Below, in pieces: positions 8,374 through 34,399 of a DNA stretch of 64,000 nucleotides. The notes under the pieces were generated by a model, which was not told the origin of the DNA, searched no databases, and saw only the letters and a list, made by a program, of their open reading frames with translations. Numbering within the stretch: the first letter of the stretch is position 1; every line of letters starts with the position of its first letter. Source of the DNA: Magnolia sinica (taxonomy: Eukaryota; Streptophyta; Magnoliopsida; Magnoliales; Magnoliaceae); NCBI RefSeq assembly GCF_029962835.1, contig NC_080574.1, positions 26,882,001-26,946,000 on the forward strand. Reading direction: 5' to 3'. The position numbers were made by a program, and so were the translations under genes.

Positions 8374-8461
8374 TCATCTTTCCCCTCTTTGCTCAGGTGT
8401 AAGTCCTCCCTTCCCACAAACAGGGCAACTCTTCAGTCCGAAACCTTGACAATCATAACAC
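8374..8461 (-). CDS. Exon 4 (last) of the BSD2-like gene
   Basis: Acceptor TGTTTCAG|GTGTTA after a 270-bp intron. It codes zinc motifs 3 and 4 and the C-terminal LTPEQRGER, then TGA. Confidence 0.93.
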
Positions 8462-11400
8462 CTGAAACAATCACACCAAAATCCCATAAAATTTAGAAAC
8501 GCTCCAAAATCTCAAGATGCAATGATCTTGGGCCGGAGCTCTCAACATCCATTTATCATGGGTGGGAATCCCCGCTCACGTCCCACCACCTCTTCCAAAA
8601 TTGTTCGAATGCATAATAGAATTCCCGCCCACTACTGATGGATGAACGGTGTGACACATGATCTCACGTAGCTAAGGGAAACATTGGAGTTGTGTGTGCT
8701 TTGTGTTCATAATTAAAAGATAAAAACCTACTTCCATCGCTCGAAGATGTTACCATTCTTCTTGTTTTTTCCAGTTCCCTGGGCAGATATGAACTTGTTA
8801 GTATTGGCCTACAAGTAGAAAAAGATGACGTCTTAGAGACTAGTTGTAGATGAGAATTTCGCCTCGGGTCTATTATACATGGCATACAACTGTTCAAAGG
8901 GATCACTCTACTATGAAAATAGGACGATGAAAAATGAGATTGATCCGATCGTCCGGTGGGAATACCACAAAAAACAATTGGCAACCACCCAAAAACTTCC
9001 ACAGTCAAGCAATGGCCCACCAAATGGTTGGATTGCCCGGATTTTTTTGGGCATCTTACTGACATGTGGTGAGCTAAGTGAGCCTGCTGGAAAGATTGGG
9101 TTCTATATATATAGGTGGTCGACGCATGCATAAATGACATAAATGATACACTACAAATAGCTGCTTATGAGCCATTCTCCAGATAAAAAGGTGGACTACA
9201 TGACATAAATGATACACTACAAACCAAGTGAATTCTGATGGGGTTTTCCTCCTCAATTCAGAGGAGAGATAGTGCAGCCGGTTGAAAATCGGAGTGTTTT
9301 ACCGCGCTACTCGACCAATCGAGAGTCACTCGACTCAAAGTCCAGCGAGCTCAGTAAACAGTGCTCGGCCAGTCAAGTGAACGGTGCTCGACCAGTCAAG
9401 GACTCTGCTCGAATAGTCAAGGCTATGCAGATTCAGTCCGGATTTTATGCGGACTGCGTAAATCTGAGGCAGTTTCGCAAGAGGTGCGAATGAGAGTTGC
9501 CTAAACTATAAATAGGGTTCTTAGGGCTTTTTTAGGGCATGCAAGAGGGTTTCTTAAAGCTTTGCAAGGGTTTGCTAAAGGGTTTAGGGCTATCAAAGGC
9601 GTGAGAGATAGAGAGAGAGAGAGAGGAAGCTTGTGGAGGTGATCTATTATGCAATCAACATCTCAGCGCTTTTACATCATTGTGATCGGTGAGATCTTTC
9701 CGTTTTTCTTTTATTTCTTATTGTTTATCCGCTCCTGTGTGAGTGAAGAAGGTTTGATTCAAGCGGTGTGTGCTTATGATTGGTTGTAACGTTCTATTTC
9801 ATAGTGGATTGTTGATCTGAACAAGGTTCCGTGGTTTTTACCTCTTTAAGGTTTTTCCACGTAAAAATCTCTTGTGTTGTATGTTTTGTGCTTTGATTTA
9901 TTTCATTGCTTTATTATCCCATAATTCTGGTGTTTTTGGGAGGCTAGGTCCTAAGGTTTTGTGCAAAGGCCCCCAACAAAGTGGTATCAGAGCTAAGTTC
10001 ATCGAACAGAGTGGGATCGGTTCTGAATTATGGAAGGTGGCTTATCAAAGATGATCAGCCTAAATGGTTCTAACTGGACCATATGGAAGGCTAAGATGGA
10101 GGACTTGCTTTATTGTAGGGACTTGTATTATCCAATTAAAGGCATATCAGCAAAGTTAAGGGATATGACAGATGATGATTAAAAGAAATTGGACTGGAAG
10201 GCGGTGGAGTTTATTAAACAAGAGTTGGACAATTCCGTCAGCCGTTAGCCTATGGTTAAAATTGTAAGGGTTTTATGAGAGGATGACAGCCGGCAATAAG
10301 ATTTTTCTGATAAGACGACTTGTGAATCTTAAGTTTGAAGATGATGATTCTGTGATTGAGCACATGAATGAGGTTAGTAATATATTGAACCAGCTCTCCG
10401 CTATGAAGATGATCCTGGATGATGAATTACAGGCTTTGCTATAGCTTAGCTCATTGCTTGACAGTTGTGAAACATTGGTGGTATCTCTAAGTAACTCCAC
10501 GCTAGACGGAAAGGTATCCATGGAATAGGTAACTAGTTGTCTCTTCAATGAGGAGATAAGGAGGAAGTCTTATGGGTTTACTCAGCAAGAGGCCCTTGTG
10601 ATATAAGATCGAGGGAGAGGAAAAAACAAAAAGGGCGGGAAGGCTTAAGATAAATTAAGAGGCAAGTCGAGTACCAGGAAGGATGTTGAATACTGAAATT
10701 ATGGCAAGGACTACTATAAGCATGAATGTCGTAAGAATCAGAATGATAAGAAAGGAAAATGAAAGGAAAAGGAAGATAAATTAGATTCCACCGCGGTTGC
10801 TTCAGATGGTGATGTTGTAGTTATTCTTTCAGTAAATCATGATGTTTGTCTCATAGTTACAAGTCAGGACACCGACTAAGTGATAGACTCGGGAGCCTCG
10901 TTTCATGCAACTCCACGCAGGGACTTTTTCACAAGCTACAAGTCAAGTGACTATGGGACCGTGAAGATGAGAAATTCTGGTATATCGAAGATCGTAGGGG
11001 TTAGTGATATTTGTGTGAAGACCGATGTGGGCTGCACATTAGTTCTTAGGGATGTGAGGCATATCCCAGACCTTCGTCTCAACTTGATGTCGACGAGAAG
11101 GTTGGATGATGATGGCTATGAAAGTCGATTTGTTGGTGGGCACTAGAAGCTCATCAAGGGTTCATTGATCGTGGCCAGAAGAAAGAAGTATTGCACCCTT
11201 TATAAGGTAAGTGTCGGTATGTGCAAGGGTGGGTTGAACGCAGCGGAAGGCTCAACTATTGACATGTCGCACAAGCGTCTAGGCCACATGAATGAAAAAA
11301 GGGCTTCAGCTACTAGCAAAGAAGCGGCTCCTTTCAGACATGACAGGTATACCTCTCAAAACCTCCATTGATTGTTTATCAGAGAAACAACATAGAGTTT

Positions 11401-14400
11401 CATTTATTAAATCTATTTCTCATGTTAATAAAGTGCATGTATTAGATTTAGTTTATTCTGATGTTTATGATCCTATGAGAACAAAAACCTTGGGTGGGGC
11501 ATTGTATTTTGTCACTTTTATAGATGATGCATCTAGAAGGGTTTGGGTTTATGCTTTGAAATCCAAGGATGAAGTCTTTGGTGTGTTTAAATTGTTTCAT
11601 CTTATGGTTGAGAGAGAGACATGTAGATCATTGAAGTGTATCCGCACTGACAATGGTGGTGAATACATCGATGACTTTCATGAGTATTGTAAGTCCCTGG
11701 GTATACGACATGAATAAACGGTTCCTAAAACCCCCTAGCATAATGGTGTGGCTGAGCGAATGAATCGCACCATTGTAGAGAGAATCAGATGCATATTATC
11801 CCATGCGAGGTTGCCCAAGACGTTTTGGGAAAAGCAATGCATACAGCAGTGTATTTGATAAACAGGTCTCCATCAGTCCCTTTGAATGGAGGAATACCTG
11901 AGAAGGTGTGGACTGGACAAGATTCATAGTACAATCATCTCAGGGTATTTGGATGCAGGACATCCGTGCACGTACTAAAGGATGAGAGGTTTAAGCTCAA
12001 TATGAAGATCAGACAATGTGTGTTCTTGGGGTACGGTGATGAAAAGTTCAGCCACAGATTGTGGGATCCGACTAAGAAGAAGCTCGTCAAGAGCAGAGAT
12101 GTGGTATTCTTTAAAGATCAGTGTATAGAGGATATTGGTAAGCTAGAGAAGAACCGGCTTAGTTTAAGTGAGCTAGAGGACATGGATTTGGTTATCCCTC
12201 TCGTGGTACCTAATGACGGGAAAGTACAACAAGTTGTAGATGACGAGAAGTTTCTATAGAAGATGGACTAGGGGAGCAGCCCCCACTTGATCCACCTATT
12301 GAGCCATAGGTGAGGAGGTCATCTATGGACAGAACCATCCAAGAGGTACTCGCCACATGAGTACATTATGCTCGCTAATAGGGGAGAGCCAGAAGATTAT
12401 TTTGAGGCCCTAGCCGATGAGCATAATGGGGAGTGGTTGAAAGCTATGCAAGAGGAGATGAAATCCTTGCATAAGAACCATACCTATGATATGATGAAAT
12501 TTTCTAAGGCCAAGAAAGCTCCGAGCAACAAGTAATGCAAGAGGAAATGAAATTCTTGCATAAGAACCACACCTATGATATGGTGAAATTTCTTAAGGGC
12601 AAGAAAGCTTTGAGCAACAAGTAGGTGTTCAGAAAGAAGATTGGACAGAAGAATTGTAAGACCCGTATCCTAGTCCGTACTATTTCGTCGACTCCCGCGA
12701 TCCTTTCCATTGAAGTCCGACAATCCGCGACCTATAATCGATGTTTGCGCACGACCCTAAGTTGTATCCTGTAGATTTGAGTTGGCTTAATCCAAGACTT
12801 CTACCATTGCGACCGCACCGTCGCCGTGACTCGCGCACCGATCCGATGCCCTGGCAGGGAGATGTGGGCCGACGTTTATTTCGAAGAAAATACCGCACGT
12901 TTGCAATCCCAATAGAATCTCTATATCATGTTAAATCAATTCAATCAATCACCTCACATATCAAGTACATGTCCCATCCCCAAAAGCAACCCCAAAGTCA
13001 ACTCTCTCTTACCCTCTCTCTTACACACCCATACATGTCAAGTACACCATCACCTCACCCATCACTCACATCCATCACCCATCTCTCACTCACTCTCCTT
13101 ACAACCCTCTCTCTCTCATTTCTCAACACACTTTTCAAGCAACCAAAAATGGTGCACGTCCAAGCCTTTTCCCAAGAGAAAAATGTGATTTTGGTGGCCC
13201 ACCTTCCCATCCCCAAAACCTTCATCCTAGCCATTCATTTTTCATCTTCCATCATCAAAGTGAGACACAAGGAGATCGGCTTTCTAACGAACCAAGAAGA
13301 TCGAACGGTGGGTACTTCTATAGGCTAGTTTTTATGTTTTTATGATGGGCCAAGTGAGGCCCACCGATCAATGGTATGGATCTCACTTTAGACCCTAAGA
13401 TGTGACCAATGGCCCACCTTAATTATCATGATCATTCCATGATGGGGCCATTCTCCATGGACCTCATCATGATGTTTACTTTCTAAGTTGGAAAAAGGTC
13501 ATCAAGACCTTCCATTTTGGTAAAGAATGGATCTCCACCGTTGATCTTTGATTTGATGGGCCCACATGTATTGGGACCCACTTGATGTATGTTTTAAATC
13601 ATGCAAGGGAGGGCCCATAATGCCGGGGTCCCTCCATCTCACGTGCATCCCACCTTTTCTCTCTCTCTCTCTCCATCTCTCTCTTTCATTTTGTTTCCCA
13701 TTGTGTGTGATGATGTGGCCGTGTGGCCCGTCCGGATGGACCCCATCATGAAGCATGTATTTTTCCCAAGCCATTTGTAGGTGAGGCCCACTTTATATAT
13801 GCATGGTACCCACACCATTTACCATTTGGTGGCCCACCTGAGCAGGGCCCACCTTATGTACGTGGCTTGCCCAAAACGTCCAGCGTCCAGGGACGCTGGA
13901 CATCAATTGAAAATACAAAATATCAGCTTGGCTCAAAGCTTCGGGGGTGGGCCACTCATGTAAGCCCTACCTTGATGTACGATTCTAATCCAAGCCATCC
14001 ATTCCATTCTCCAGATTATTTTATGCGTTAAGCCGAAAAATGAAGTCAATCTGGTTTTTTGGTGGGCTATAGCTTAGCAAACAGTGTGTCTACCATTGAA
14101 ATCCACCCTGATGTTTTGATGCACCAAAATATATCGAATATTGGGCTTGTTTGGCTTGTCTTAAGGCGTAGGAGCTAGTGGACAGGTCGGATTCTCCTGA
14201 TGAGGGCCCCACCTAGGAAGTTCTTCAGAAAAACTACTTTTCAAAAAAAAAAAGTTTAAGCAGCAGGCGTCCTGCTGCATTTGACGTTGGACGGGCAGTG
14301 ACCACGGGTCCCAGCCGTGGGCCCCACGTGATGTGTGTGGGACATCAACACCATGCATTTGGTGGGCCACTTTTCAAACAATGCCCCCCCCTTTAAATCA

Positions 14401-14722
14401 GCTGTATCCACAGCTCAGGTGGCCCACACGGCAGGGATTAAACGTCTGCCATTGAAACACTTTTTGGGTTGCAGAAGCTTTGAATCAATATGAAATTTGT
14501 TTTTCCTTCCAGCCAGGTCAGCGTGACCTTCTCAACAGGTTGGACAACATATAAGCATTATGGTGGGCCTCACGTGGGACCCACTGATGTATGTATTATG
14601 TTCCACACCGTCCAGATGACTGGACGGTGGAACCCACTATGGTGTATGTGTCTTACCCACACCGTCCATAGTACTGGACGGTGGGACCCACCACACGTGT
14701 GGGGCCTGCACCTGGTGTGTTT

Positions 14723-14756
<34 letters not shown>

Positions 14757-17700
14757 TGTATTATATTGTATATATTATATACTATATAATATATTCCTGA
14801 TGGTGGGCCCTTCATGGAACCCACCTGTTTCATCCATGCCATCCGTCTATATGGGCCTTGATGGTGGGCCCTTCATGGAACCCACCTGTTTCATCCATGT
14901 CATCCGTCTATATGGGGGCCACCATGATGCATGTGTTGCATCCAAACCATCCAACCTTTTGGGCAAGCTCATTTTAAGGCTTAAAACGAAATAAGACAGA
15001 TCTATCTATCAAGTGGACCACACGACAATGTGAGCATTGAAATGCCTACCACTGAAATCACCTTGGTATATGTATGGGGCCCATCTTGTAAGACCCGTAT
15101 CCTAGTCCGTACTGTTCCATCAAATCCCGCGATCCTTCCCGTCGAATTCCGGCAACTTGCAATTGAAAATCGACGTTTGTGATCGATCCTAAGTTGTATG
15201 TTGTAGATTTGAGTCAGCTTAATTCAAGACTTGTACCATTGCGACCGCACCGTCGCCACTGTTCCAACGCCGCGACTCGTGCACCGATCCGATACCCTAG
15301 AAGGAAGATGTGAGCTGGCGTTTATTTCGAAGAAACACCGCGCGTTTGCAATCCCAAGAGAATCTCTACAACATGTCAAATCAATCCCATCCATCACCTC
15401 ATGTCAAGTACAAAACAACCCATGCTTTCTCTCTCCAATGTCAACCCTTTCTCACCCTCTCTCTTACACACCCATGCTAGTCAAGTACACCATCACCTCA
15501 CCCATCACTCACATCCATCACTCTCTCTCTCTTTACATCCCATCTCCCTCTCTCTCTCTCTCTCATTTCTCAACTCAATCCTAAGCAACAAGTGAGCTCA
15601 CGTCCAAGCTTCTCCATGTGAGAGAAATGTGATTTTGGTGGCCCACTTTTCCATCCCAAATCCTCCATCCTAGCCATTCACTTCTCATCTTCCATCGTTG
15701 AAGTGAAGCTCAAGGAGATCGGATTTCCAACGGACCGAGAAGATCGACCGGTGGGTGCTTATTAGACTAGATTTTTCATGTTTTATGATGGACAAAGTGA
15801 GGCCTACCGAATCAATGGTATGGTCTCACTTTGGACCACTAGGTGTGGCCGATGGCCCACCTTGATGCTCATGATCATTTCATGAGCCTACCGAATCAAT
15901 GGTATGGTCTCACTTTGGACCACTAGGTGTGGCCAATGGCCCACCTTGATGCTCATGATCATTCCATGATGGGGCCATTCTCCATGGACCCCATCATGAT
16001 GTGCACTTAGGATGTCCTTGGGTGAAAGTCTCAGAACCTTTTTGGTACCAGGAGATGCTCCAACGTCTAGACCGAGTGGATACACGAGCGCCCTAGTGCC
16101 GAATACCAGTAGGTCGCGTCTCCCACTGTGTCATGGTCGATTGGAAGGGGGTGTGGCCTTATCCGCCCGAGTGACGGGGCTATAAGATAGGCTGAGTTTG
16201 ACCAGCTCGTAAATGAGTCCGCTATCGACGAGCCGGGTAGGTATTGGCAGACTACTGGTTAGGCGGATAGTGTGATCTCTTCCACTTGCTTGACTGTGCA
16301 GCTAGGGAGGAGACAGTCAGTGTGAGGTGTATTAGACCCCGGTGATATCCAAAGAGAAACTGTATTGATATGATGAGTACTGGCACGCTTGCTTTGCATC
16401 TCGCATATAACATTTGACTACATAGGCCTCGCATCGCATGGCCTTGGTATGGCCGATAGCATTCATGCCTTGCATCACATGGCCTTGATATAGCTGATAG
16501 CATTCATGGACTTACCGCATATTTTCGCATTACTCTGATATTATACATTTGGCACTCGCCTTACACACACTTTCACCACCCTCTAAGCTTTCTATAAGCT
16601 TATGCACGATAGATGCGTGCAGGTGGCGTTAGGTTGCAGCAGCGTTGAGCTTGTAGCGTGTAGCTGAGCTTCTGGAGTTTCTTTTACTTTCATTATATTG
16701 TATTTCCCTTTCATACGCATTGTACTTAAAGTTTTTGATATAGTGGATATGTGATGTTGTTGTTTTGTGACTTGGTTATGCTTGTGGTTATGCTCCATTA
16801 CAAAAAAAAATTATACTGAAAATCCTCCTTGTAGGATCCCAGGATCGGAATCTGGCATGAGAGTGCCGGAATCCGAGAATGGGGCACTACGGAGGCTGTT
16901 GGCACCGGATTCGGCGATCGAAAATTTTGTGAGCCTCATACATATACCCTTAACGTTTATGCCTTCGAGAATGAATGGGTTTCGGGTCTGAATAACTTAA
17001 TGATTTTTCGACATAGACCCTTAACGTTTATGCCTTCGAGAATTCTCAAGGCTGATAGGCCCTTGTTCCTTCCTATAGGACATAATGGCTAGAAGATCGA
17101 CCCGAGCGAATCCCGCTCCTCCACCTGCGACTCCTGCTCCTCCACCTGCGGCTCCCGCTTTACCACCGGCGACTCCCGTTCCGCCACCAGATATTCCTGA
17201 TTTCCAGCCCGAGGATGCCACTCATTTACTTGAGACCAGTGCGGATCCGACCGTACCTGTGAGTGCCACCCAGGTGCAGCAGATGCTTTAGGCGATGATC
17301 GCGATTCTTCAGGGGCAGAGTAGGCGTCCCACTGTTACACCAGCTGAGGCCGAGCAGGAGCGTGCGAGCGCCCTTCTCAAGGACTTCCGACAGCACGATC
17401 CTCAGCGTTTTCGAGGTGAGCCTGATCCTACTGCAGCAGAAATATGGTGCTCCGAGGTGGATAAGATATTCGAAACCATGAGATGTACGACTCAGCAGCG
17501 AGTCTCATTAGTTGTATTCCTTCTCCAAGGTGAGGCTCAGCATTGGTGGGCATCTGTGGCCCGATCTGTAGCGGCCAATTTCGAGTGGACCTGAGAGGAC
17601 TTTGTGGACTGGTTTGACCGGAAGTTCTTTCCCGAGCATGTGCGCCAGCAACGCGCACTAGAGTTTGAGACTCTGGTCCAAGGGGACATGACTATGTCCC

Positions 17701-20700
17701 AGTATAAGGCTCGTTTCATTGCACTATCGAGATTCGGGACGTATCTTGTTGATGATGAGGGGCGGAAGGCCCGCCGTTTTGAGAACGGTTTGCGTCCTGC
17801 CCTCAGGAGTCGTGTGATTGGACACATGCTTCCGACTTTTGAGCAGATTGTGGAGAGGGCCCAGATTTATGAGTCAGATTGGGCCAGTTTGCAGAGAGCC
17901 CGTGACCATAGGGGAGATCAGAAGAGGAAGGTGCCCTCTGGTAGTTCCCAGCTGCAGCAGCATCGTTTACAGCAGCGACACATGACCCGCCCAGCATTCC
18001 GAGCCCCAGCAGTACCCCCAGCACCACCTTCGGGACCATTTACCGGTACCTGCTTTGGATGCGGTAGGACAGGTCATCGCGTGCACGAGTGTCCCCATCC
18101 GCAGCAGTAGCCGCCGAGGGCACAACATCCACCTCCGCGACAGCCACCACAGCATCAGCAGCCGAGGGCACCATATCAGCCTTCGCGACAACCCCCATAG
18201 CAACAGCAACGACAGCAGCACTAGCCTCTGGGACCTCTCCCGCAGCAGCAGAGACCTCAGAGGGGACCTGCACCTCCCCAGCAGGCCCACGGTAAATTTT
18301 ATGCCGCCCAGCAGGACCCTCAGTCATCAGGAGCAGTTGTCGACGATTCGCGTGACTTAGCCCCTACACCGTCTTCCTAGATTGTTCATGAATGAGGTGT
18401 CCTGGGAGTTAGAGCTTGAGATTTGTGGGCATTATCCTTATCCCTTAGATGTTTGATTATGTTGGTATGTTGTGTTCTGATTATATATATATAGCGGTGT
18501 GGTTTCCCTCTCTTGATAAGCTTTGTATTGGTTATGTTATGATTTAAATTTCGAGGACGAAATTTCTTATTAGGTGGGGAGAGCTGTAAGACCCGCATCC
18601 TAGTCCGTACTGTTCCATCAAATCCCGCGATCCTTCCCGTCGAATTTCGGCAACCTGCGATCGGAAATCGACGTTTACGATCGATCATAAGTCGTATGTT
18701 ATAGATTTGAGTCGGCTTAATTCAAGACTTGTACCATTGTGACCGCATCGTCGCCGCGGTTCCAATGCCGTGACTCGTGCACCGATTCGATACCCTGGCA
18801 GGAAGATGTGAGCCAGCGTTTATTTCGAAGAAACACCGCGCGTTTGCAATCCCAAGAGAATCTCTACAATATGTCAAATCAATCTCATCAATCAATCCCA
18901 TCCATCACCTCATGTCAAGTACAAAGCAACCCATGCTTTCTCTCTCCAAAGTCCACCCTTTCTCACCCTCTCTCTTACACACCCATGCTAGTCAAGTACA
19001 CCATCACCTCACCCATCACTCACATCCATCACTCTCTCTCTTTACATCCCATCTCCCCCCCTCTCTCTCTCTCATTTCTCAACTCAATCCCAAGCAACAA
19101 GTGAGCTCACGTCCAAGCTTCTCCATGTGAGAGAAATGTGATTTTAGTGGCCCACTTTTCCATCCCAAATCCTCCATCCTAGTCATTCACTTCTCATCTT
19201 CCACCGTTGAAGTGAAGCTCAAAGAGATCGGCTTTCCAATGGACCAAGAAGATCGACCGGTGGGTGCTTATTAGACTAGATTTTTCATGTTTTATGATGG
19301 ACAAAGTGAGGCCTACCGAATCAATGGTATGGATCGCACTTTGGACCACTAGGTGTGGCCGATGGCCCACCTTGATGCTCATGATCATTCCATGATGGGG
19401 CCATTCTCCATGGACCCCATCATGATGTTTATCTTCCTTGCATGCATAGGGTCATTTAGACCATCTATTTTGGTGGAGAAAGGATCTCCACCGTTGATTT
19501 TCAATTTGATGGGCCCACGTATAATGGAACCCACTTGATGTACGATTGGATGCTTGAAACGGAGGGCCCATAGTGCCGGGGTCCCTCCATCACACGTGTC
19601 CCACTATCTTTTTCTCTCTCTCCCTCTCTTGTTATTTATGTATTTTGTGTATGATAGAATGGCCATATGGCCCACCCGAATGGACCCCACCATGAAGCAT
19701 GGTTTGGACCCAATCCATTTGTGGGTGAGGCTCATCTTGCATGTGTATGTGATCCACACCACCTCACCATGTGATGGCCCGCCTAAGCAGGGCCCACCCC
19801 AATGCACGTGTTATGTCCAGACGTCCAGGGACGTCCCTGGACGTTAATTGAAAACACAAATATTAGCTTTTCCAAAGCTTATTGGGTGTGCCATTCATGT
19901 AGGTCCCACCTTGATGTAAGTGTTCAATCCACGCCGTTCATTCTATTCTCGAGTTCATTTTAGACGTTGGATCGAAAAATGAAGCTGATCCGAGTATCTG
20001 GTGGGCCATAGTATGAGAAATTGTGATGGTTGCCGTTGAAAAATCAACTACTATTTTTATCCATAAAAATATATTCAATATTGGGCTCATTTGCCTTGTA
20101 TTAAGCCATGGGACCCAATGACAGGGTCAAATTCCACTGATGTGGGCCCCATACACAAAAAACCACGACATTTCGTGTTTTCAAAAAAAAAAAAAAAATA
20201 TACATGCAGCAGACGCTGCTGCTGTCAGAGACGCAGGCAGCGCCTGCTGCTGGCGGGCGGGCGGACGCAGCAGACCCACGGCTCCAGCCGTGGGCCCCAC
20301 CATGATGTACATTTGTCATCCAACCCGTTCATTCGGTGGGCCACCTCCTGAGGCGGGCCCCCTCCAAATTTCAGCCTCTTCCAAGACTCAGGTGGCCCAC
20401 ATCATGGGAAACAATGCGATTGAACGTCTGCATTTGAAAACTTTGTTTGGGCCACAAGTTTTGGATCAATCTGAAATTTTTTTTTACTCTTCGTCCAGGT
20501 CTATGTGACCACATGGACAGATTGGATGGTGAACAAACATTACGGTGGGCCCCACGTGGGACCCACAATGATGCATATATTTTATTCATACCGTCCACAG
20601 GCAGTGGACGGTTAGAGCCCACAGGTGATGTATGTGTTTTAGTCACACCGTCCAGGCAGACGGTGGGACCCCCCCTTCATGTGTTTTATTCACACTGTCC

Positions 20701-23700
20701 CATGACAGTGGGGTCCATCATGATGCATGTGCTGCATCCAAGCTGTCCAATCATTTTGAAAGCCCACTTTAAGGCTTGAGACTAAAAATAAGATAGATCT
20801 ATAGTTCAAATGGACCCCACCCTGGTATATGTTTGGGGCCCATCTTGATTTACTTATGGCCGTCCATTAAGGCTCACCTTGGTATATATCTAGGGCCCAT
20901 ATGATTAGGCCCATTTGGTATGCATAAGGCCCATATGATTAGGCCCATTTGGTATGCATAAGGCCCCATATGATTAGGCCCATTTGGCATGCATAAGGCC
21001 CATGTTACAAGGCCCATTGTGATGTTTTCAAAGGCCCATGGGACATGGCCCATTGCAATGTACATAAGGCCCATTGATGCGGCCCACTTGATTTATATAA
21101 GGCCCTTATGAGGTGGCCCATTTGATGTATCTGAGGACTATGGGTCGAGGCCCAATGAGATGTATATAGGTCCATTGCAATGTGTGATTCCCTATGGTTT
21201 GTGCAATGATATTTTATGGCGAGCCATGCCTTGGGAGCAATGTTGGTTTGACGTCCACATTGTAAGTACAATGTTGGTTAAATGTCCGCATTGTAACTCT
21301 CCTTAAGGCCCATTGATAGGCTCATACTTGTTGATAGTTCATTACTTTATAACATGCTTAGTGCACTTCCATGATTCATGCCCATACGCATCATATGTAT
21401 GCTTGAGATGAGGAATATTTGATCATAGCATAAGCCGTTGGGCTGAGACATTTACGGGACTCTTTATGAGACGGAGTGCCCCGCATGATCGCGTGGTACG
21501 CGCAGGATTGCTGCATGATTGTACGGTGTGACTCATGCATCTCGCATATGTGTGACTTGATCACTGCACGCCCTAACGACATCAGGGTCGTGGCTCCATA
21601 GACATATCGTGGATGGCCGTATCGGATACTGGAAATGCTTGGTTTTAGCACTGTGGGCACTTAGGATGTCCTTGGGTGAAAGTCCCAGAACCATTTTGGT
21701 ACCAGGAGATGCTCCAACGTCTAGACCGAGTGGATACACGAGTGCCCGAGTGCCGAATATCAGTAGGTCGCGTCTCCCACTGTGTCGTGGTCGGTTGGAA
21801 GGGGGTGTGGCCTTATCCGCCCGAGTGAGGGGGCTATAAGCTAGGCTGAGTTTGACCAGCTCGTAAATGAATCCGCTATCGACGAGCCGGGTAGGTATTG
21901 GCAGACTACTGGTCAGGCGGATAGTGTGGTCTCTTCCACTTGCTTGACTGTGCAGCTGGGGAAGAGGCAGTCAGTGTGAGGTGTATTAGACCCCGAAGAT
22001 ATCCAGAGAGGAACTGTACTAATATGTGTACTTGATGAGTACTTGCACGCTTGCTTTGCATCTCGCATATGACATTTGGCTACATAGGCCTCGCATCGCA
22101 TGGCCTTGGTATGGCCGATAGCATTCATGCCTTGCATCACATGGCCTTGATATAGCTGATAGCATTCATGGACTTACCGCATATTTTCGCATTACTCTAA
22201 TATTATACATTTGGCACTCGCCTTACACACACTTTCACCACCCTCTAAGCTTTCTATAAGCTTATGCACGATAGATGCGTGCAGGTGGCGTTAGGTTGCA
22301 GCAGCGTTGAGCTTGGAGCGTGCAGCCGAGCTTCTGGAGTTTCTTTTACTTTCATTATATTGTATTTCCCTTTCATACGCATTGTACTTAAAGTTTTTGA
22401 TATAGTGGATATGTGATGTTGTTGTTTTGTGACTTGGTTATGCTTGTGGTTATGCTCCATTACAAAAAAAAATTATACTGAAAATCCTCCTTGTAGGATC
22501 CCAGGATCGGAATCTGGCATGAGAGTGCCGGAATCCGAGAATGGGGCACTACGGAGGCTGTTGGCACCGGATTCGGCGATCGAAAATTTTGTGAGCCCGT
22601 TTTCCGAGTTTGGGGCGTGACACATCTTGATTTATTTGTGGCCGTCCATTGAGGCCCACCTTGGTATATGTATGAGGCTCATCTTGATTTATTTGTGGCC
22701 GTCCATCGAGGCCCACCTTGGTATATATAAGGCCCAAGTGATTAGGCCCACCTTGTCATATTTATGGCCCATTGTTGAGGCTCACCTTGATGAGTATGAG
22801 GCCGTTGTTGAGGCCTACTTTGATGTGAACGTAAGGCCCATGTTATGAGGCCCATTCAATGTATTTATGGCCCGTGGTTGAGGCCCACTTTGATATATAT
22901 AAGGCCCATGTTACGAGGCCCATTGTGATGTATTTAAAGGCCTATGGGATATGGCCCATTGCAATGTACATAAGGCCCATTGATGCGGCCCATTTGATGT
23001 ATTTGAGGCCCATGAGTTGAGGCCCAATGGGATGTATACAAGGTCTATTGCATTGTGTGATTCCACCATGGTTTGTGTAATGATATTTATAGCGGGCCAT
23101 GCCTTGGGAGCAAATGTTGGTTTGACGTCCACATTGCAAGAATAATGTTGGTTAAATGTCTACATTATAACTCCCCCATAGGGCCCATTGATAAGCCCAT
23201 ACTTGTTATGTGTTAGCCGTCTAGGCCCATTTACATTGTAAGGATAGTTCATTACTTTATAACATGCTTAGTATAATTCCATAACTCATGCCATACGTAT
23301 CATCTGTGTGCTTGATATGAGTAGTGACTGATCATTGCATACGCCATTGGGCAGACGGAGTGCTCACATTATCGCGCCATATGCGCAGGATTGCTACATG
23401 ACTGGATGGTGTGACTCATGCATCTCGCATATATGTGACTTAATCATTATACGCCCTAGCGACATCAGGGTCATGGCCTCCACAGACACATCGTGGATGG
23501 CCAGATGGGACACCGAAAATATTTGGTTCTAGCACTATGGGCACTTAGGATGTCCTTGGGTGAAAATTTCAGAACCTCCGAGGCCAGGAGTAGCCCCAAC
23601 GTCTAGACCGAGTGGAACATGAACGCCCGAGTGCCAAATACCAGTAGACCGCATCTCCCACTGTGTCGTGGTCGGTTGGGAGGGGGTGTGGCCTTATCCG

Positions 23701-26700
23701 CCCGAGTGAGGGGGCTATAAGCTAGGCTGAGTATGACCAACTCATAAATGGGTCCGCTATCGACGAGCCGGATAGGTATTGACAGACTACTGGTTAGGCG
23801 GGTAGTGAGGTTTATTCCGCTCGCTAGGCTGTGCAGATAGGGAGGAGGCAGTCGGTGTCGAGTGTAATAGACTCGGTGATTTTTTCAGAGAGCAACCGTA
23901 CTGATATGTGGACTTATTGAGTAGGAATTGCATATCCATTCATTTATTCATTCACTATCCACTCAGGTTGGTGGTGCGTAATTATTTGTTACGTGTACCA
24001 TTGCATGGCCAGGATTTCGGTTGGGCGCGCGACTAACCTGAGATTAGGAGTTTACCACATTATGTCTGACTATCCAAATTTAAGTATGAGACTGGTTTCG
24101 ATAGAGGTCCTTTATGATTGACCCCATAGCCTGTGATACTTCGTACTATCATCCCGACTTCACATTTTAACATGGTCATTTCATTTGCACCGCATATCAC
24201 ATTGCATCTGCAGTACTTAGCATTTTAGGTTACTATGTTTTTGCACTTATATGGCCTAGATGAGGTTGATGGTATTCGTGACTTGTCAGGATTTGCATAT
24301 TGCATTGTATCCTCAGCATATTTTATTGTCTTATTATGTTTTGCATCGCATGGCCTTGGGGCTGATAGCACTCATGGACTTAAAGCATATTTTCGCTTAC
24401 TCTAATACCATATGATTCATGATCTTATCAGTTTTTCGCTTATTCTGATGATGTATGATTTATGAGCTTTATTGTACACTTGACACTTATCTTGTGCATA
24501 CAATTTCACTACCCTCTAAGCTTTTGTAAGCTTATGCACGATAGATGCGTGCAGGTGGCGTTAGGTTGCAGCAGCGTTGAGCTTGGAGCGTGCAACTGTC
24601 CTCTAGAGCTTTGATTTCGATATATGTATTCCCCTTTCAGCATTGTATTCAAATGATTATATTAGTGGATATGTGGTGATGATGTTAACTTTATGATTTG
24701 AGTATACTTGTAGTTATGCTTCTTATGAGACAAATGTACGTTGGAAAATCCTCCTTGTAGGATCCCAGGATCGGAATCTGGTATATAAGTGCCGGAATTC
24801 GAGAATGGGGCACTACGAAGGCTGTCGGCGCCGAATTCGACGATCGAAAATTTTATGAGCCCGGTTTCCGAGTTTGGGGCGTGACAAGAATTCACAGACG
24901 AGGTTCAAGGCCAGACTTGTGGTGAAAAGATTTGGTCAGAGGAAAGGCATAGACTTTGAGGAGATTTTCTCGCCATTGGTGAAGATGACATCTATACGGG
25001 CGTTGCTTGAGCATTCCTTATGGGGGGATACAACCTGAAAATCACCCTCAATAGATAGTCCAATCCTTAAGTTAGCCATGGTTTTTACAGTCATCTATAT
25101 TTCGAGTCACAGATTGGATGGTTAAATCCATGATGGAGCACAATAAATAGATGGATGCAATTGTTACAGAGGCCTAGATTCCTGGAACTCATCTTGACCT
25201 TTCATTTTATAGGCTATTGATCTAATGGTTATAATCCCTAGATTGGTGTGAATTTTAGATGGTAGGCAAAGAAATGTGTGATGAACCAAATGGATAGCCC
25301 TGATTGGTCGTTGGACTGTCGAAGTGTCCTGATGCAGCTAAGAGCACTGTAATATGGAGATAGAGCAGTTAGATGTTAAAACTGGCTTTCTCCATGGTGA
25401 CCTGAAAGAAGAGATCCACATGCACCAACTAGAGGGGTTCGAAGTCAAGGGCAAAGAGTATATGGTGTGTAGGCTAAGGAGGTGCTTGTATGGGCTGAAA
25501 CAAGCTCCAAGGCAATGGTACAAGAGTTCGACTTATTCATGTTAAAGCATGGGTATGACAGAACGGAGTCGGACCACTGTGTGTTTACGCATAAGTTTTC
25601 AGATGTTGATTTCTTAGTTTTGCTATTATACGTTGATGACATGCTCATCGTGGGAAAAGACATCAAGAAGATCGACAGGCTGAAACAGGAGTTGAAAAAG
25701 TCGTTCACGATGAAAGACTTGGGCCCAGCTAAACAGATCTTAGGAATGGATATAACCCGTGATAGAAGCATTAGGAAGCTTTGGCTGTTACAAGAATGAT
25801 CTATTGAAAAGTCCTAGAGTGGTTCAATATGAATGTAGCGAAGCCGGTCAGTACTCCATTAGATGGTCACTTTAGATTGAGCGACAGACAGTGTCCCAAG
25901 ACGAAGGCAGAGGTGGATGAAATACAGAAGATACCCTACACGTCAGCAATAGGAAGTTTGATGTATGCTATATTGTGTACGTGCCCAAACATAGCATATG
26001 CGGTTGGTGTTGTCAGCCGGTATCTTACCAATCTTGGCAATGAGCATTGGGCAGCGGTGAAATGAATACCGCGGTATCTAAGAGGCTCATCCAGTTTGAG
26101 CCTATGCTATGGTGACGGAAAACTTGTGTTAAAGGGCTACATAGATGCAGATATGACAGGTGACATAAACTCTAGGAAGTCTACATGAGAGTTCATGTTC
26201 ATGTTTGTAGGAGGAGCGGTTTCTTGGCAGAGCAAGTTACAAAAGGTCGTAGTATTGTTGACGATAAAGGCCGAGTACATTGCAGTCATAGAGTTCCTAT
26301 AGGAACTTAACCTGAAACAAGAGCAACACATAGTCTATTGCGATAGTCAAAGTGATATACACTTGAGCAAAAATCCAAATTAGCACTCCAAGTCGAAACA
26401 CATAGAGATTCGGTATCACTAGATCAGGGATACTTTGGAACAGAAGGTATTACAGCTTGAGAAGGTCCACATGGATGATAATGAGTTAAACATGATGACC
26501 AAGGCTTTGTTCAAGGGCAAGTTTAAGGTTTGTAGAAACCGGACTGGCTTGAAGAAGGCGAATTTCTCTTGAGTCGGAAAGGAGAAGATTTGATGGGGTT
26601 TTCCTCCTCAGTTCAGAGGAGAGATAGTGCAGCCGATTGAAAATTGGAGTGTTTCATCGCGCTGCTCGACTAGTCGAGTGGATTGCTCGACTAGTCGAGG

Positions 26701-28651
26701 TTCACTTGACTCAAAGTCCAACAAGCTCAGTAAACAGTGCTTGACCATCTTAACTAGTCGAGTGGATTGCTCGACCAGTCGAGGTTCACTTGACTCAAAG
26801 TCCAGCAAGCTCAGTAAACAGTGCTTGACTAGTCGAGGGCCTGGCTCGACCGGTTGAGTAAACAGTGCTCGACCAGTCAAGGGCTCTGCTCGATTAGTCG
26901 AGGCTACGCAGATTCAGTCCAGATTTTGTATGGATTGCATAAATCTGACGCGGTTTCGCAAGAGGTATGAAAGGGAGTCGCCTAAACTATAAATAGGGGT
27001 TTCTAGGGCTTTTCTAGGGCATGCGAGAGGGTTTCCTAAAGCTTTGCAATGGTTTGCTAAAGGTTTTAGGACTATCAAAGGCGTGAGAGAAAGAGAGAGA
27101 AAGAGAGAAAGATGAAGCTCGTGGAAGGGAGGTTATGCTCGTGGAGGTGATCTACTGTACAATCAACATCTCAGCGCTTCTATGTCCTCGTGATCTGTGA
27201 GATCTCCCTGTGTTTCTTTTATTCTCTTATTGTTTATCCGCTCTTGCGTGAGTGAAGAAGGTTTGATTTAAGCGGTGTGTGCCTGTGATCGGTTGTAACG
27301 TTCTACTTCATAGTGGATTGTTGATTTGGACAAAGTCTCGTGGTTTTTACTTTTTTGAGAGTTTTCTACGTAAAAATCTCTCGTGTTGTGTCTTTTGTGC
27401 TTTGATTTATTTCATTACTTTATTATCCCATAATTCTGATGTTTTTGGGAGGCTAGATCTTAAGATTTTGTGCAAAGGCCCCCAACAAATTCTTGCATAT
27501 TCCATCCATCCAGTGTCTTCAGGAAGGTGAGAGGCATTGGAATTATAGTCAAATTATCACTTATGTTTGAGCGTTTGTATAAGCTCCTTGAAATATTATC
27601 TACCCAAATTCATTGTATTAGAGATCATATTTTTTTTTTGGTAACGATTAAAAAGTCTTGATTACCAAAAAAATATGATTTTTTATATTTAATTGCAATT
27701 AACTAAAATAACATGAACTCATTTTTGGGCGTCTGACAAACAGGCCCTTAGAATAAAAATGTGGATTTGGGCTATGAGGATGTCTGATGCAAGAGAAAGG
27801 AATATCAATACCTTACAACCAGGGCACTCTATTGAACCTTGCCCACTACACGTTTGGCACCTCTTTCTAACCTGCAACATTTTCTCTTGATTACAATTAA
27901 GAAACATGGAACATTCTACCTTATATTTAGAGAACCTTGATGCTTTGTTGCTGCAATGCATGATCAATCACATGGATGACTATTTGAAGGGAAAAGAGGT
28001 GCACTAGGATAAGTTGAAGGCACTGAAGGCAGCAACTGATAGTCTCTCTATCATATTAGGGGCATGTTTATTTTTGTTTATGATGATCGTTTCAGATTTA
28101 TTTAGTTAATTTTCTGCAAGAACAAAGTTGGTTCCAGCCGCTGGATCCGCAAAGGGTGCCTGTGGCCTAGTGCTTGACACCTGCCCTGTGGGTAGTGGAT
28201 CCAAACCGTGCATCTCGTTGATCTTATCCGTTGATTGCCCAAGGTCTAAAACCACATCTAACGGACTACTCTAGCCATTTGAAAAATGAACTTCAACCAT
28301 GGGCCATTTTCCATCTCAAGACAAGACCATCTGGATGGACATTCTGGATCCACTGCCTCACCTGCCATGATATTGGCCGACGAAATACCGTTTTGGATCC
28401 AGCACATCGAATCAGAGACGTCTGTTCATTTCTTCTTCCAATTTTGTTTGTTGGTGAATTTCCAATTCTTCTTAATTAAAATTTTGAAGTGAACATACCA
28501 AATTGAAAGATGGACCACCGGATTTCATGGCGAGAATGCCAAACACCTTCTTCCTCCACGGTTGGACATTGGGTGCATTTATGCATGAGTTAGAACGGGG
28601 TGGTACTTTGGAAAGGATCTTCAAACCATTGCATGTGGAGAGCTCGGCCAT
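8374..28651 (-). CDS. DnaJ-type zinc-finger (BSD2-like) protein, four exons
   Basis: The coding exons on the minus strand are 28499-28651, 27812-27871, 8732-8778 and 8374-8461. They give 115 residues with phases that join without error (0, 0, and a split Lys codon AA|G). The protein has four CxxCxGxG-type zinc motifs: CQTCSGQG, CPGCKGTG, CYDCQGFG and CPVCGKGG, and it ends LTPEQRGER. This is the cysteine-rich zinc domain of DnaJ without the J domain, as in the BSD2/LQY1 group. From memory it is closest to Arabidopsis At5g17840. Members of this group are mostly plastid proteins that help protein assembly or disulfide handling. The basic, Ser/Pro-containing first 45 residues suit an organelle transit peptide (inference). 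An in-frame ATG at 28735 would add 28 residues; I prefer MAELSTCNG because the extra part is unlike the family. Intron 2 is 19,033 bp and is almost wholly retroelements. Confidence 0.9.
8732..8778 (-). CDS. Exon 3 of the BSD2-like gene
   Basis: Acceptor CTGCCCAG|GGAACT, donor TGGAA|GTAGGT. It supplies GTGKNKKNGNIFERWK, completing zinc motif 2 (CPGCK/GTG) across the 19-kb intron. Confidence 0.93.
9236..9978 (+). repeat. Left LTR of the copia element
   Basis: Starts TGATGGGGTTTTCC and ends GGCCCCCAACA. The U3 part carries repeats of a TCGACC/TAGTCGAG-like motif (9295-9420), and CTATAAATAGGG near 9507 is a TATA box. Confidence 0.95.
9982..9993 (+). promoter_or_regulatory. Primer-binding site of the copia element
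   Basis: TGGTATCAGAGC lies three bases after the left LTR. It is the standard plant site complementary to the 3' end of initiator tRNA-Met. Confidence 0.95.
10029..10870 (+). pseudogene. Copia gag region (fossil)
   Basis: Begins MEGGLSKMISLNGSNWTIWK, typical of a copia gag N-terminus (LNGSNWxxWK), and has a zinc-knuckle-like Lys/Cys/His stretch near 10690-10735. It is broken. Confidence 0.8.
10871..11860 (+). pseudogene. Copia protease and integrase regions (fossil)
   Basis: Protease active site VIDSGASFHAT lies near 10878. The pre-integrase HKRLGHMN block is near 11270, the integrase core with YSDVYDP and FVTFIDDASRRVWVY is at 11455-11560, and RTDNGGEY is near 11645. AERMNRTI follows near 11755. 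It is broken. Confidence 0.88.
14721..14759. repeat. (TG)n microsatellite in the solo LTR
   Basis: Run of TG with one interruption, followed by TATATTATAT sequence. Confidence 0.95.
15087..16935 (+). repeat. Left LTR of the gag-bearing gypsy-like element
   Basis: Begins TGTAAGACCCGTATCC. It matches the outer portions of the right LTR (18585-22622) closely but is much shorter. Confidence 0.88.
17085..18110 (+). pseudogene. Gypsy-type gag region (fossil)
   Basis: Starts MARRSTRANPAPPPATPAPP, with a proline-rich head. A retrotransposon-gag core follows with EIWCSEVDKIFETMRC, VVFLLQGEAQHWW and DWFDRKFFPEHVRQQRALEF, then a CCHC zinc knuckle CFGCGRTGHRVHEC near 18050-18090. The capsid-like core and knuckle are typical of plant Ty3/gypsy chromoviruses. 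It is broken. Confidence 0.9.
18111..18584 (+). other. Post-gag region and 3' purine tract of the gypsy-like element
   Basis: A CAG/CCG-rich stretch rich in Gln, Pro and Arg codons is followed by about 200 bases of AT-rich sequence. The TTCGAGGACGAAATTTC motif and GGTGGGGAGAGC come just before the right LTR. No polymerase motifs are visible. Confidence 0.75.
18585..22622 (+). repeat. Right LTR of the gag-bearing gypsy-like element (about 4.0 kb)
   Basis: Begins TGTAAGACCCGCATCC and ends GGGGCGTGACA. The first part is CTCTCT-rich. The middle is full of GGGCCCACC, TGATGTAxGTG and CACCGTCCA phrases and degenerate AGGCCCAT arrays. The last 1 kb has GTGGCCTTATCCGCCCGAGTG and GGATCCCAGGATCGGAATC blocks that are also found in the solo LTR. 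Confidence 0.9.
20865..21180. repeat. Degenerate tandem array (about 37-bp unit) in the right LTR
   Basis: Units of the form AGGCCCATATGATTAGGCCC followed by ATTTGGTATGCATA are repeated with growing divergence. Two or three units near 20890-21000 are nearly identical. Confidence 0.85.
22628..23045. repeat. Degenerate tandem array in the solo LTR
   Basis: The same AGGCCCA(C/T)-based units as at 20865-21180, in a different arrangement (for example GTGGCCGTCCATTGAGGCCC at 22640 and 22697). The two LTR copies have evolved different unit orders. Confidence 0.8.
24892..26575 (+). pseudogene. Copia reverse transcriptase and RNase H regions (fossil)
   Basis: After the nested insertion the RT region continues with FKARLVVKRFGQRKGIDFEE. 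The QLDVKTGFLHGDL block is at 25366-25405, the catalytic LLYVDDMLIVG near 25623, and an RNase H-like part with IGSLMYAI, DADMTGDINSRKS and HIEIRYH at 25950-26420. It is broken. Confidence 0.88.
26576..26590 (+). other. Polypurine tract of the copia element
   Basis: CGGAAAGGAGAAGATT directly before the right LTR, the expected plus-strand priming site. Confidence 0.8.
26591..27487 (+). repeat. Right LTR of the copia element
   Basis: Same ends as the left LTR (TGATGGGG ... CCCCCAACA). It is about 150 bases longer, mainly because the U3 array of TCGACTAGTCGA-like palindromes (26660-26905) has more units. Confidence 0.95.
27812..27871 (-). CDS. Exon 2 of the BSD2-like gene
   Basis: Acceptor TGTTGCAG|GTTAGA, donor TGTAAG|GTATTG. 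Codes 20 residues, VRKRCQTCSGQGSIECPGCK: zinc motif 1 and the first half of motif 2. Confidence 0.93.
28499..28651 (-). CDS. Exon 1 of the BSD2-like gene
   Basis: Codes residues 1-51, the likely transit peptide, and ends AATTTG|GTATGT in phase 0. Intron 1 is 27872-28498 (627 bp). Confidence 0.85.
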
Positions 28652-28976
28652 TTCTTTGGGAGAAAGAAAAAGTAAAAGAAAATTCCTACAATGATTTCTT
28701 GATTCTAGTTGTGGTTGCTGTTGTTTTATAACCATACGAAGAGAAAGTATGACTTAGAATTTTAAAAGCAGTGAATGAGAGAGGGAATGGATAATGAAGG
28801 GATGCATGCAAACCACATGCTTTGGATGGTAGAGGGCCCTACATGTGTTTCGGAGGTTTGCTAGCCTTACTCGCCCCCTCACCTCACGCACACCACACGT
28901 GCCAATCTGGCAAGTGTGCGGAACATCTGAGAAGTGCATGAGGTGGTCCGCACCATGGATGTTACTATGTGAAAAG
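28652..28976. promoter_or_regulatory. Upstream region of the BSD2-like gene
   Basis: This stretch lies just 5' of the preferred start on the minus strand. It includes an in-frame upstream ATG at 28735 and AT-rich leader-like sequence. No clear TATA box could be fixed, so its promoter role rests on position only. Confidence 0.35.
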
Positions 28977-28988
28977 GTGAGGTGGGTC

Positions 28989-29118
28989 ACGGATCCTTAC
29001 TCCTGCTCCGGTGGTAGACTTTAGGAGTTTCAACACCCGGTCAAGGGTTTGAGTATCCATAGGTGGTGAAACCCCACTAAGGTGCGAGTGTGTGGGGGTG
29101 TGTAAAAAAAAAAAAAAA
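28989..29118 (+). mobile_element. tRNA-derived SINE with intact target duplication
   Basis: A 130-bp unit with an A-box-like TGGTAGACTTTAGG, a B-box-like GGGTTTGAGTATCC, a GGTGGTGAAACCCCACTAAGG block and a 15-base A tail. It is flanked by a perfect 12-bp direct repeat, GTGAGGTGGGTC (28977-28988 and 29119-29130). Size, promoter boxes, tail and duplication together define a SINE. The same family is seen at 6667-6830 in reverse. Confidence 0.88.
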
Positions 29119-29130
29119 GTGAGGTGGGTC

Positions 29131-29629
29131 CAAAAAATTTGACATACCTAGAGGGGTCCAAATGCCATTGGTCCATAGAATCTGTTTATAACCCCTGTAT
29201 ACGAATGACCGGTTTACTTTTGAGTGCCCCACTTGTGGGAGAAAATCAATGTTATAAATCTTATCCATTGATATGCCAGTGATGTTGATGCTCTTATGCA
29301 TAGATTATGATGGCCATAGTTATTATATAGACACATTACAATGCTATAATATGATGGAATACTTTTAAACATTTGAGATTATAGGAAAATTGAAAGAGAT
29401 TTTTATTAGAGGTGTTTGGACAATAAATTACTTTAAATAAGCTACTTATGCCATAAGTAGCTTATCCTAGTTTTTACTTAATCAATAGATAAGTATGATT
29501 GATAGATAACAAATTTATCATATAAATAGTAAAAAAGCTTACTTGGTTTCCAACATCACAAATAATTATCTTGAAAGTCTACTCCGTCTCTCTCAAAATT
29601 ATTGTCTATCATGTAGGGCTAACTTTTGA
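29131..29629. other. No gene recognised
   Basis: AT-rich intergenic DNA. AAATTACTTTAAATAAGCTACTTATG and its near-inverse around 29430-29470 give a local hairpin-like signal only. Confidence 0.5.
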
Positions 29630-32911: not shown

Positions 32912-34399
32912 ATGCTTCCGATGCTTAGATGCGTCTCACATTCAAACAAGCTTCAGTTTCTTCTTCGAAAACCCTCTCAGACGACCCTTGTAAAGCTAAC
33001 CAGACATCTCTCTCACGCCTCATCTCAAGAATCCATCATCACCGATCTAGTCTTGAAAACCGACGGAGATGCCCTAGTCCAAGCCCTAGAGCTTGAATTC
33101 AACAAAATTCCCTGCTCGCCCGACCTTGCTGATCGCGTCCTCAAGCGCCTCTGGAACCATGGCCCCAAAGCGTTCGCTTTCTTCGAATTCCTCGACCGCC
33201 GCTCCCCCAACGGCTACAAGCACACCATCTCCACCTTCAACCACGCCATCGACATTGCCGGCCGGATGCGCGACTATGGGACCCTCTGGAACCTCCTCTC
33301 CCGCATGCGGGCCCGCCGCGTCGCTCCGACGCCCCGCACCTTCGCCATCATCGTCGAGAGGCACGTCTCCGCCGGTAAAGCCGAAAAAGCTCTTCGCATT
33401 TTCCTTTCGATGCACCGGCATGGCTGTCTTCAGGACTTGTCTTCTTTCAATACCTTGCTGGATGTGCTCTGTAAGTCCAAGCGTGTTGAAATGGCGTGCT
33501 CGCTCTTGAAGACTTTCAGGCGGGAATTCGATGCCGATACCATCAGTTATAACATAATTGCCAATGGATGGTGCCTGATTAAGAGGACGCCGAAGGCGTT
33601 GGAGACTCTCAAGGAGATGGTGGAGAGGGGCTTGATCCCAACCATCGCCACATATAATATCTTGCTCAAGGGTTTTTTCCGGGCTGGGCAGGTGAAGGAG
33701 GCTTGGGAATTCTTCTTGCAGATGAAGAGGAGGGGATGCAATCCCGACATTGTCACATATACGACAGTCGTTCATGGGTTTGGGCTCGTGGGTGAAATCG
33801 AAAAGGCTCGGAGAGTCTTTGATGAGATGGCTGAGCATGGCTGCCTTCCGTCTGTTGTGACTTACAATGGCTTGATTCAGGTTCTTTGTAAGAAGGACAG
33901 TGTGGAAAACGCCCTTGTGGTGTTCGATGAGATGGTGCAGAAGGGATATGTCCCCAATTCTACAACTTATAATGTTTTGATCAGGGGGCTCTGCCATGCA
34001 GGAGAGATGGACAGGGCGTCGGAGTTCATTGAGAGGATGAGAGATGATGGGTGCGAGCCGAATGTTCAGACATATAATGTTTTGATCCGGTATCTGTGTG
34101 ATGCCGGAGAGATTGAGAGGGGTCTCGATGTTTTTGGAAAAATGGGTGATAATTGCTTGCCAAATTTAGACACCTACAATATTTTGATTAGTGCATTGTT
34201 TGTGACGAAGAAGGCGGATGATGTTCTGATGGCTGGGAAGCTGTTGATGGAGATGGTGGGAAGAGGGTTTGTTCCTCGAAGATTCACTTTCAACCGTGTC
34301 GTGAATGGGCTTCTATTGTCTGGGAATCAAGGTTTCGCGAAGAAGCTCTTGAGAGTGCATAGTAGGTGTGGTCGTCTCCCTCGGAAGATCAGATTGTGA
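32912..34399 (+). CDS. OTP43: OTP43, P-class PPR protein for mitochondrial nad1 intron 1 splicing
   Basis: A single uninterrupted exon of 495 residues. An in-frame TAA at 32906 sits two codons before the ATG, which fixes the start. The first 40 residues are rich in Arg, Ser, Leu and His and lack acids, as in a mitochondrial presequence. From about residue 108 to 490 there are ten to eleven 35-residue PPR units of the plain P type, with signatures such as TYNILLKGFFRAGQVKEAWE, VVTYNGLIQVLCKKDSVENA and TTYNVLIRGLCHAGEMDRAS. There is no E, DYW or SMR domain. Order and wording match Arabidopsis At1g74900 (OTP43) from RVLKRLWNHGPKA to the final RKIRL (recalled, not aligned by program). In Arabidopsis OTP43 is needed for trans-splicing of nad1 intron 1 and so for complex I. 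Lack of introns is usual for PPR genes. It looks intact. Confidence 0.95.
   Translation: MLPMLRCVSHSNKLQFLLRKPSQTTLVKLTRHLSHASSQESIITDLVLKTDGDALVQALELEFNKIPCSPDLADRVLKRLWNHGPKAFAFFEFLDRRSPNGYKHTISTFNHAIDIAGRMRDYGTLWNLLSRMRARRVAPTPRTFAIIVERHVSAGKAEKALRIFLSMHRHGCLQDLSSFNTLLDVLCKSKRVEMACSLLKTFRREFDADTISYNIIANGWCLIKRTPKALETLKEMVERGLIPTIATYNILLKGFFRAGQVKEAWEFFLQMKRRGCNPDIVTYTTVVHGFGLVGEIEKARRVFDEMAEHGCLPSVVTYNGLIQVLCKKDSVENALVVFDEMVQKGYVPNSTTYNVLIRGLCHAGEMDRASEFIERMRDDGCEPNVQTYNVLIRYLCDAGEIERGLDVFGKMGDNCLPNLDTYNILISALFVTKKADDVLMAGKLLMEMVGRGFVPRRFTFNRVVNGLLLSGNQGFAKKLLRVHSRCGRLPRKIRL

Follow-up and report, generated by a model that had tools for sequence, protein, structure and literature searches.

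How a gene with only 348 bp of coding sequence comes to occupy about 20 kb, and whether it is likely to have stayed a working gene with such a structure, is the question raised by a locus in the genome of Magnolia sinica. We examined this locus within a window of 64,000 nucleotides (the whole stretch of DNA that was analysed, C2:26882001-26946000).

The split gene and its predicted product

The gene runs along the minus strand for about 20 kb (28651 to 8374), and its exons were located and joined by script. Its parts are the following.

28499-28651, minus strand: exon 1, codons 1-51, putative plastid transit region (joined by script; transit role from composition)
27872-28498, minus strand: intron 1, 627 bp, GT-AG
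27812-27871, minus strand: exon 2, VRKRCQTCSGQGSIECPGCK, with motif 1 and the first part of motif 2
8779-27811, minus strand: intron 2, 19,033 bp, GT-AG, phase 0, cutting motif 2 as CPGCK/GTG
8732-8778, minus strand: exon 3, GTGKNKKNGNIFERWK, with the remainder of motif 2
8462-8731, minus strand: intron 3, 270 bp, GT-AG
8374-8461, minus strand: exon 4, with motifs 3 and 4 and the stop codon

Exon lengths of 153, 60, 47 and 88 bp add up to a 348-bp frame that includes the TGA codon and encodes 115 residues, with correct phases throughout. The first-pass annotation had proposed four exons of 348 bases in all, in phase across a 19,033-bp intron, and the script-joined exons agree with it. Its statement that this intron divides the second CxxCxGxG motif (CPGCK / GTG) is borne out by the joined frame, in which the interruption falls between the K and G codons in phase 0. 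The splice sites and eight cysteines had also been described as intact: the four exons are open and keep their phase, the six splice dinucleotides are all present (GT-AG in each of the three introns), and the domain retains its eight cysteines. The donor of intron 2, AAG/GTATTG, is an imperfect match to the consensus.

The domain's eight cysteines are arranged as four CxxC pairs, of which three belong to full CxxCxGxG motifs and the fourth lies in CPVCGKGG; J-domain-less DnaJ-like zinc-finger proteins are recognised by four motifs of this type. When the 64-residue domain was shuffled 200,000 times, three or more full motifs never arose. When the 115 residues were compared with Pfam, the relevant matches were BSD2_CRD (E 0.0014) and DnaJ_CXXCXGXG (E 0.016), neither of which reached its curated gathering cut-off, and no J-domain was present among the six matches up to E 1. 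Since both matches are under cut-off, we liken the product to DnaJ-type zinc-finger proteins by its motif pattern and not by a curated profile, and on this pattern we predict a small J-domain-less protein of that type. Its N-terminal composition, the only basis for this assignment, suggests that it is probably targeted to the plastid. A sequence search of the PDB up to E 1 matched three distinct sequences, the only one below 0.001 (E 1.7e-5, two entries) being an 'Embryo defective 2737' chain, whose motifs are related. Prokaryote genomes were also scanned, and none of the 48 pattern matches obtained there is a relative of the protein. Cucumber CsVYL was also considered and set aside; it is a separate DnaJ-like gene, and its proteins combine two full motifs with incomplete ones.

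Searches of the magnolia's own genome covered 1,838,573,281 bases in 127 contigs. The protein search, up to E 10, returned 17 matches: four are the exons described here (E 1.6e-27 to 0.009) and the other 13 have E values of 0.36 or worse. All four matches of the DNA search with the joined coding sequence are again these exons. An intron-short copy elsewhere, which the first-pass annotation had named as evidence that would count against it, was looked for in this way, and neither the protein nor the DNA search found a processed or intron-short copy.

We rejected the identity of the gene as BSD2 itself. Both over-cut-off matches to the BSD2 cysteine-rich domain lie elsewhere, at C1:121219606-121222342, and none of the ten matches obtained with this domain up to E 10 falls inside the window. 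The BSD2-like gene occupies a locus of its own at C1:121.21-121.22 Mb (C1:121213800-121222800), with introns of about 5.4 and 2.5 kb inside motif 1 (at the last glycine codon) and motif 3; its exon edges were read by eye, and the exon with motif 1 is a match under the cut-off (E 6.2). Introns thus cut motifs 1 and 3 in that gene, whereas intron 2 cuts motif 2 in the present one, and because the zinc motifs of the BSD2-like gene are interrupted as well, there is nothing special about an intron that falls within such a motif. Elsewhere in the window, an open frame of 495 residues on the plus strand (32912-34399) contains nine PPR_2 stretches (E 8.7e-95) and is probably, by this domain content, a gene for a PPR protein. 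An antisense frame of 303 residues (33086-33997) overlaps it, and none of its Pfam matches exceeds a cut-off.

Three nested LTR insertions in intron 2

The anatomy of the stack inside intron 2, its three target-site duplications and its nesting order are directly visible in the DNA, and are listed here from the outside inwards.

9236-27487, plus strand: copia LTR retrotransposon including nested insertions, 18,252 bp
9236-9978, plus strand: copia 5' LTR, 743 bp
26591-27487, plus strand: copia 3' LTR, 897 bp
9231-9235: target-site duplication AATTC, left copy
27488-27492: target-site duplication AATTC, right copy
12655-24886, plus strand: solo LTR (TGTAAGACCC...GTGACA) within the copia element, own sequence 4,691 bp
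12650-12654 and 24887-24891: target-site duplication AGAAT of the solo LTR
15087-22622, plus strand: gag-bearing LTR element within the solo LTR, of the same LTR family, own sequence 7,536 bp
15082-15086 and 22623-22627: target-site duplication CATCT of the gag-bearing element
about 15087-16945 (left) and 18585-22622 (right): LTRs of the gag-bearing element

The outermost element has two LTRs, a 5-bp target-site duplication (AATTC) and an integrase placed before RVT_2, and is assigned to copia on these grounds. The first-pass annotation had attributed 18.25 kb to copia. This figure is right for the span (18,252 bp), but 12,232 bp of it, or two thirds, are a nested pair from another LTR family, and copia proper amounts to 6,015 bp once the nested insertions are subtracted. 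Nine stop-to-stop pieces of the copia element were compared with Pfam. Five have a copia-type match over cut-off (Retrotran_gag_2, Pol_BBD, SH3_retrovirus, and RVT_2 twice, at 25342-25542 and 25473-25796), two have sub-threshold matches only and two have none; the integrase core (rve) is over cut-off in one further piece, at 11292-11717. Intact copia reading frames are absent, the domains being spread over short stop-to-stop pieces in several frames and divided by the nested insert, and we therefore regard this copy as dead. An 89-bp tandem duplication at 12446-12623 lies in the copia pol region, adjoining the nested insertion.

Within intron 2, the insertion leaves 324 bp on the donor side and 457 bp on the acceptor side, and both splice sites are spared. 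The stack accounts for 95.9% of the intron (96% in the earlier estimate) and the GT-AG ends are kept, as in an LTR-expanded intron. Subtraction of the 18,252-bp element and of the 5-bp duplication from 19,033 bp leaves 776 bp for the older, empty intron, close to the 0.78 kb previously proposed, and all three elements lie on the plus strand, that is, opposite to the direction of the gene, as had been claimed. A genome search with the copia LTR gave at least 43 matches, including the window's own, with 40 of 4,560 first-look candidates scored; the copia LTR family is therefore probably abundant in the genome. An inverted-repeat scan of the flanks returned no pairs in 8462-9240. Eight short pairs were found in 27488-29300 (15-38 nt, 70-87% complementary), and we took none of them to mark the ends of another DNA transposon.

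Both outer pieces of the middle layer align to the right LTR of the innermost element, at 71-86% by piece, and for this reason the middle layer is interpreted as a solo LTR belonging to that element's LTR family. It is a single LTR flanked by its own duplication (AGAAT), with no internal region, and its ends (TGTAAGACCC at the start, GTGACA at the end) are also the ends of the gag-bearing element. The stack is self-nested in that the innermost element lies inside a solo LTR of its own family. The Retrotrans_gag match of this element, at 17604-18110, is just over cut-off (24.7 vs 24.1 bits), and zf-CCHC stays under cut-off in the same stretch. About 1.6 kb separate the two innermost LTRs, which leaves little room for pol, and pol is probably absent, to judge by this short length, one frame of the stretch having been scanned. 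Elements of the TR-GAG-like kind are non-autonomous and are defined by two LTRs enclosing gag only, without pol; the innermost element, with one frame of its internal stretch scanned, is at most a candidate for this kind. Its LTRs are very unequal. The left one lacks about 2.2 kb and has a degraded end and an 84-bp tandem duplication, while the right one measures 4,038 bp.

The LTRs of the copia element are 88.6% identical (11.4% divergence) over 743 aligned sites, with 73 transitions and 12 transversions, giving a K2P distance of 0.128. For the innermost LTRs, which were aligned piecewise because of the 2.2-kb deletion, the distance is 0.045 over 1,772 sites (58 transitions, 19 transversions). 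The larger value for copia agrees with the nesting order. At an alternative substitution rate of 7e-9 per site per year, the copia insertion would be about 9 million years old and the innermost one about 3 million. With 1.51e-9 per site per year, as applied to magnoliid relatives (PMC8626473), the corresponding figures are about 42 and 15 million years, and the rate is the largest uncertainty in this dating. Differences of the C/T type between the copia LTRs occur at 20 of 64 CG, 13 of 54 CHG and 40 of 246 CHH sites and are thus proportionally commonest at CG. This excess fits methylation-driven decay and suggests that the older age figures are overestimates.

Probable splicing across the stack and alternative readings

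We consider it most likely, with a probability of roughly 85%, that this is an ordinary nuclear gene from which the nested LTR stack in intron 2 is spliced out whole. Under this model, a copia retrotransposon would have jumped into intron 2 in the orientation opposite to transcription and would then have received a second LTR element, which presumably recombined to a solo LTR; the solo LTR would later have taken in the gag-bearing element of the same LTR family. As the splice signals are at some distance from the insertions, the 19-kb intron is most likely still excised in a single piece by the spliceosome, perhaps with help from silencing of the elements inside it. The intact frame, splice dinucleotides and cysteines, together with the finding of no other copy, suggest that the gene probably still works. 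Arabidopsis genes that carry long methylated elements in their introns are expressed; where the heterochromatin marks on such elements are lost, downstream transcription defects and early polyadenylation are seen, the latter around the 5' part of the intronic element (PMC4417168). By analogy, a dependence on the marks of the intronic elements may hold in the magnolia gene too.

Repeats are the usual cause of false joins, and the 20-kb span could be explained as an assembly artefact in which unrelated repeats connect two gene halves. This explanation is hardly credible given the 5-bp target-site duplications, which match in each of the three layers and are unexpected from a false join, the agreement of the exon phases across intron 2, and a contig N50 of about 45 Mb in the published assembly (PMC10999834). 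It is also unlikely, in our view, that we are looking at a recent pseudogene, its productive splicing ended by the insertions and its exons too young in that state to have decayed. The sole copy found does carry a 19-kb intron, and this intron contains 21 AATAAA words on the gene strand (a raw count, given without a chance expectation), each of which is in principle a potential site of premature transcript termination. However, the exons are still open and in phase, with six dinucleotides and eight cysteines intact, despite the 11.4% divergence of the copia LTRs, and no replacement copy was found by the own-genome protein and DNA searches.

There is a small chance that the transcript often ends within the stack, in which case the protein would be truncated, keeping motif 1 and one half of motif 2, and the full mRNA would need silencing of the IBM2/EDM2 type; this can be compatible with an ordinary gene whose intron is removed whole. 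Read-through from exon 2 meets a stop after 50 residues counted from the start of that exon, so that the product including exon 1 would have about 101 residues, and early polyadenylation accompanies the loss of marks on intronic elements in Arabidopsis (PMC4417168). Set against this, Arabidopsis genes with intronic elements are relatively highly expressed, and it was in mutants that the short transcripts rose (PMC4417168); truncation therefore need not dominate in normal plants. Quite unlikely, and more speculative in kind, is the idea that the stack works as a switch, its silencing state selecting either the full four-motif protein or a version of about 101 residues that stops within the intron and retains one and a half of the zinc motifs.

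Taken as an ordinary gene with a spliced-out stack, the locus represents a clean and roughly datable case of magnoliid gene growth through nested LTR insertions, with splice sites and frame visibly undamaged. It could also be used to test whether full-length transcription across very long plant introns packed with transposons calls for special chromatin machinery. The phenomenon is a documented one, of which this is a fresh example that overturns nothing.

Long introns in magnolias and comparison with known systems

Long, LTR-rich introns have been described for Magnoliaceae and Chloranthus, and in Chloranthus LTR elements are named as the major contributor to them (PMC8626473). Introns of Magnolia biondii have a mean length of about 2,774 bp and a median of 525 bp, with 'exceptionally long introns' in some genes (PMC7917104), and a length of 19 kb is well above that mean. 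Repeats make up 56.99% of the Magnolia sinica genome, and LTR elements 48.9% (PMC10999834). As a control we used the chaperonin family (PF00118) in the same genome, in which 87 of 148 candidates were scored. The gap count draws on 42 of these 87 rows, hand-picked from multi-exon series, with gaps over 40 kb discarded; the 45 rows left out include isolated hits, one intronless match over the full length and numerous short copies that lie in pairs about 0.3 kb from each other. Among the 17 gaps that join neighbouring profile positions, three are at least 5 kb and one is at least 10 kb long, and as keeping the paired copies would lower the share of long gaps, these counts do not amount to an unbiased rate.

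One chaperonin intron of 13.8 kb (C5:80083535-80097345) has GT-AG ends and keeps the frame, as read by eye. Its self-comparison revealed no LTR pair and instead an internal tandem array built of units of about 165 bp (C5:80093301-80097800), and that of a 5.1-kb control intron revealed no internal repeat. Since no LTR pair was seen in the control introns, they bear on intron length and not on LTR content. The rarity implied by the first-pass annotation is not supported, because LTR-swollen introns are prevalent in this plant group (PMC8626473, PMC7917104) and control genes also have long introns. The 19-kb intron is long, yet it is known behaviour of these genomes.

Arabidopsis AT1G22630, which we take to be a plastid protein about 110 residues long and with a domain of this kind, is presumably similar to the magnolia gene in size and domain kind, and we claim no orthology between them. 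It has been named 'SSUH2-like protein' (PMC9264592), and the papers found on it do not treat its function. The DnaJ-like zinc-finger plastid chaperones BSD2, ZnJ2 (PMC5818400), PSA2 and LQY1 likewise carry cysteine-pair motifs without a J-domain. Like them, the magnolia gene encodes a short protein with a putative transit region.

At the level of gene structure, the intronic element of Arabidopsis RPP7 is COPIA-R7. RPP7 and AT1G11270, the latter with COPIA78, are likewise apparently working genes with a retroelement inside an intron (PMC4417168). The Arabidopsis elements measure about 5 kb, compared with an 18-kb stack in the magnolia gene. The LTR-expanded introns of Chloranthus and magnoliids, from the same or a neighbouring plant group, are also long introns in otherwise normal genes. 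The intron described here is of the same kind, and is set apart from them by its three nested elements and by the very short coding sequence that it interrupts.
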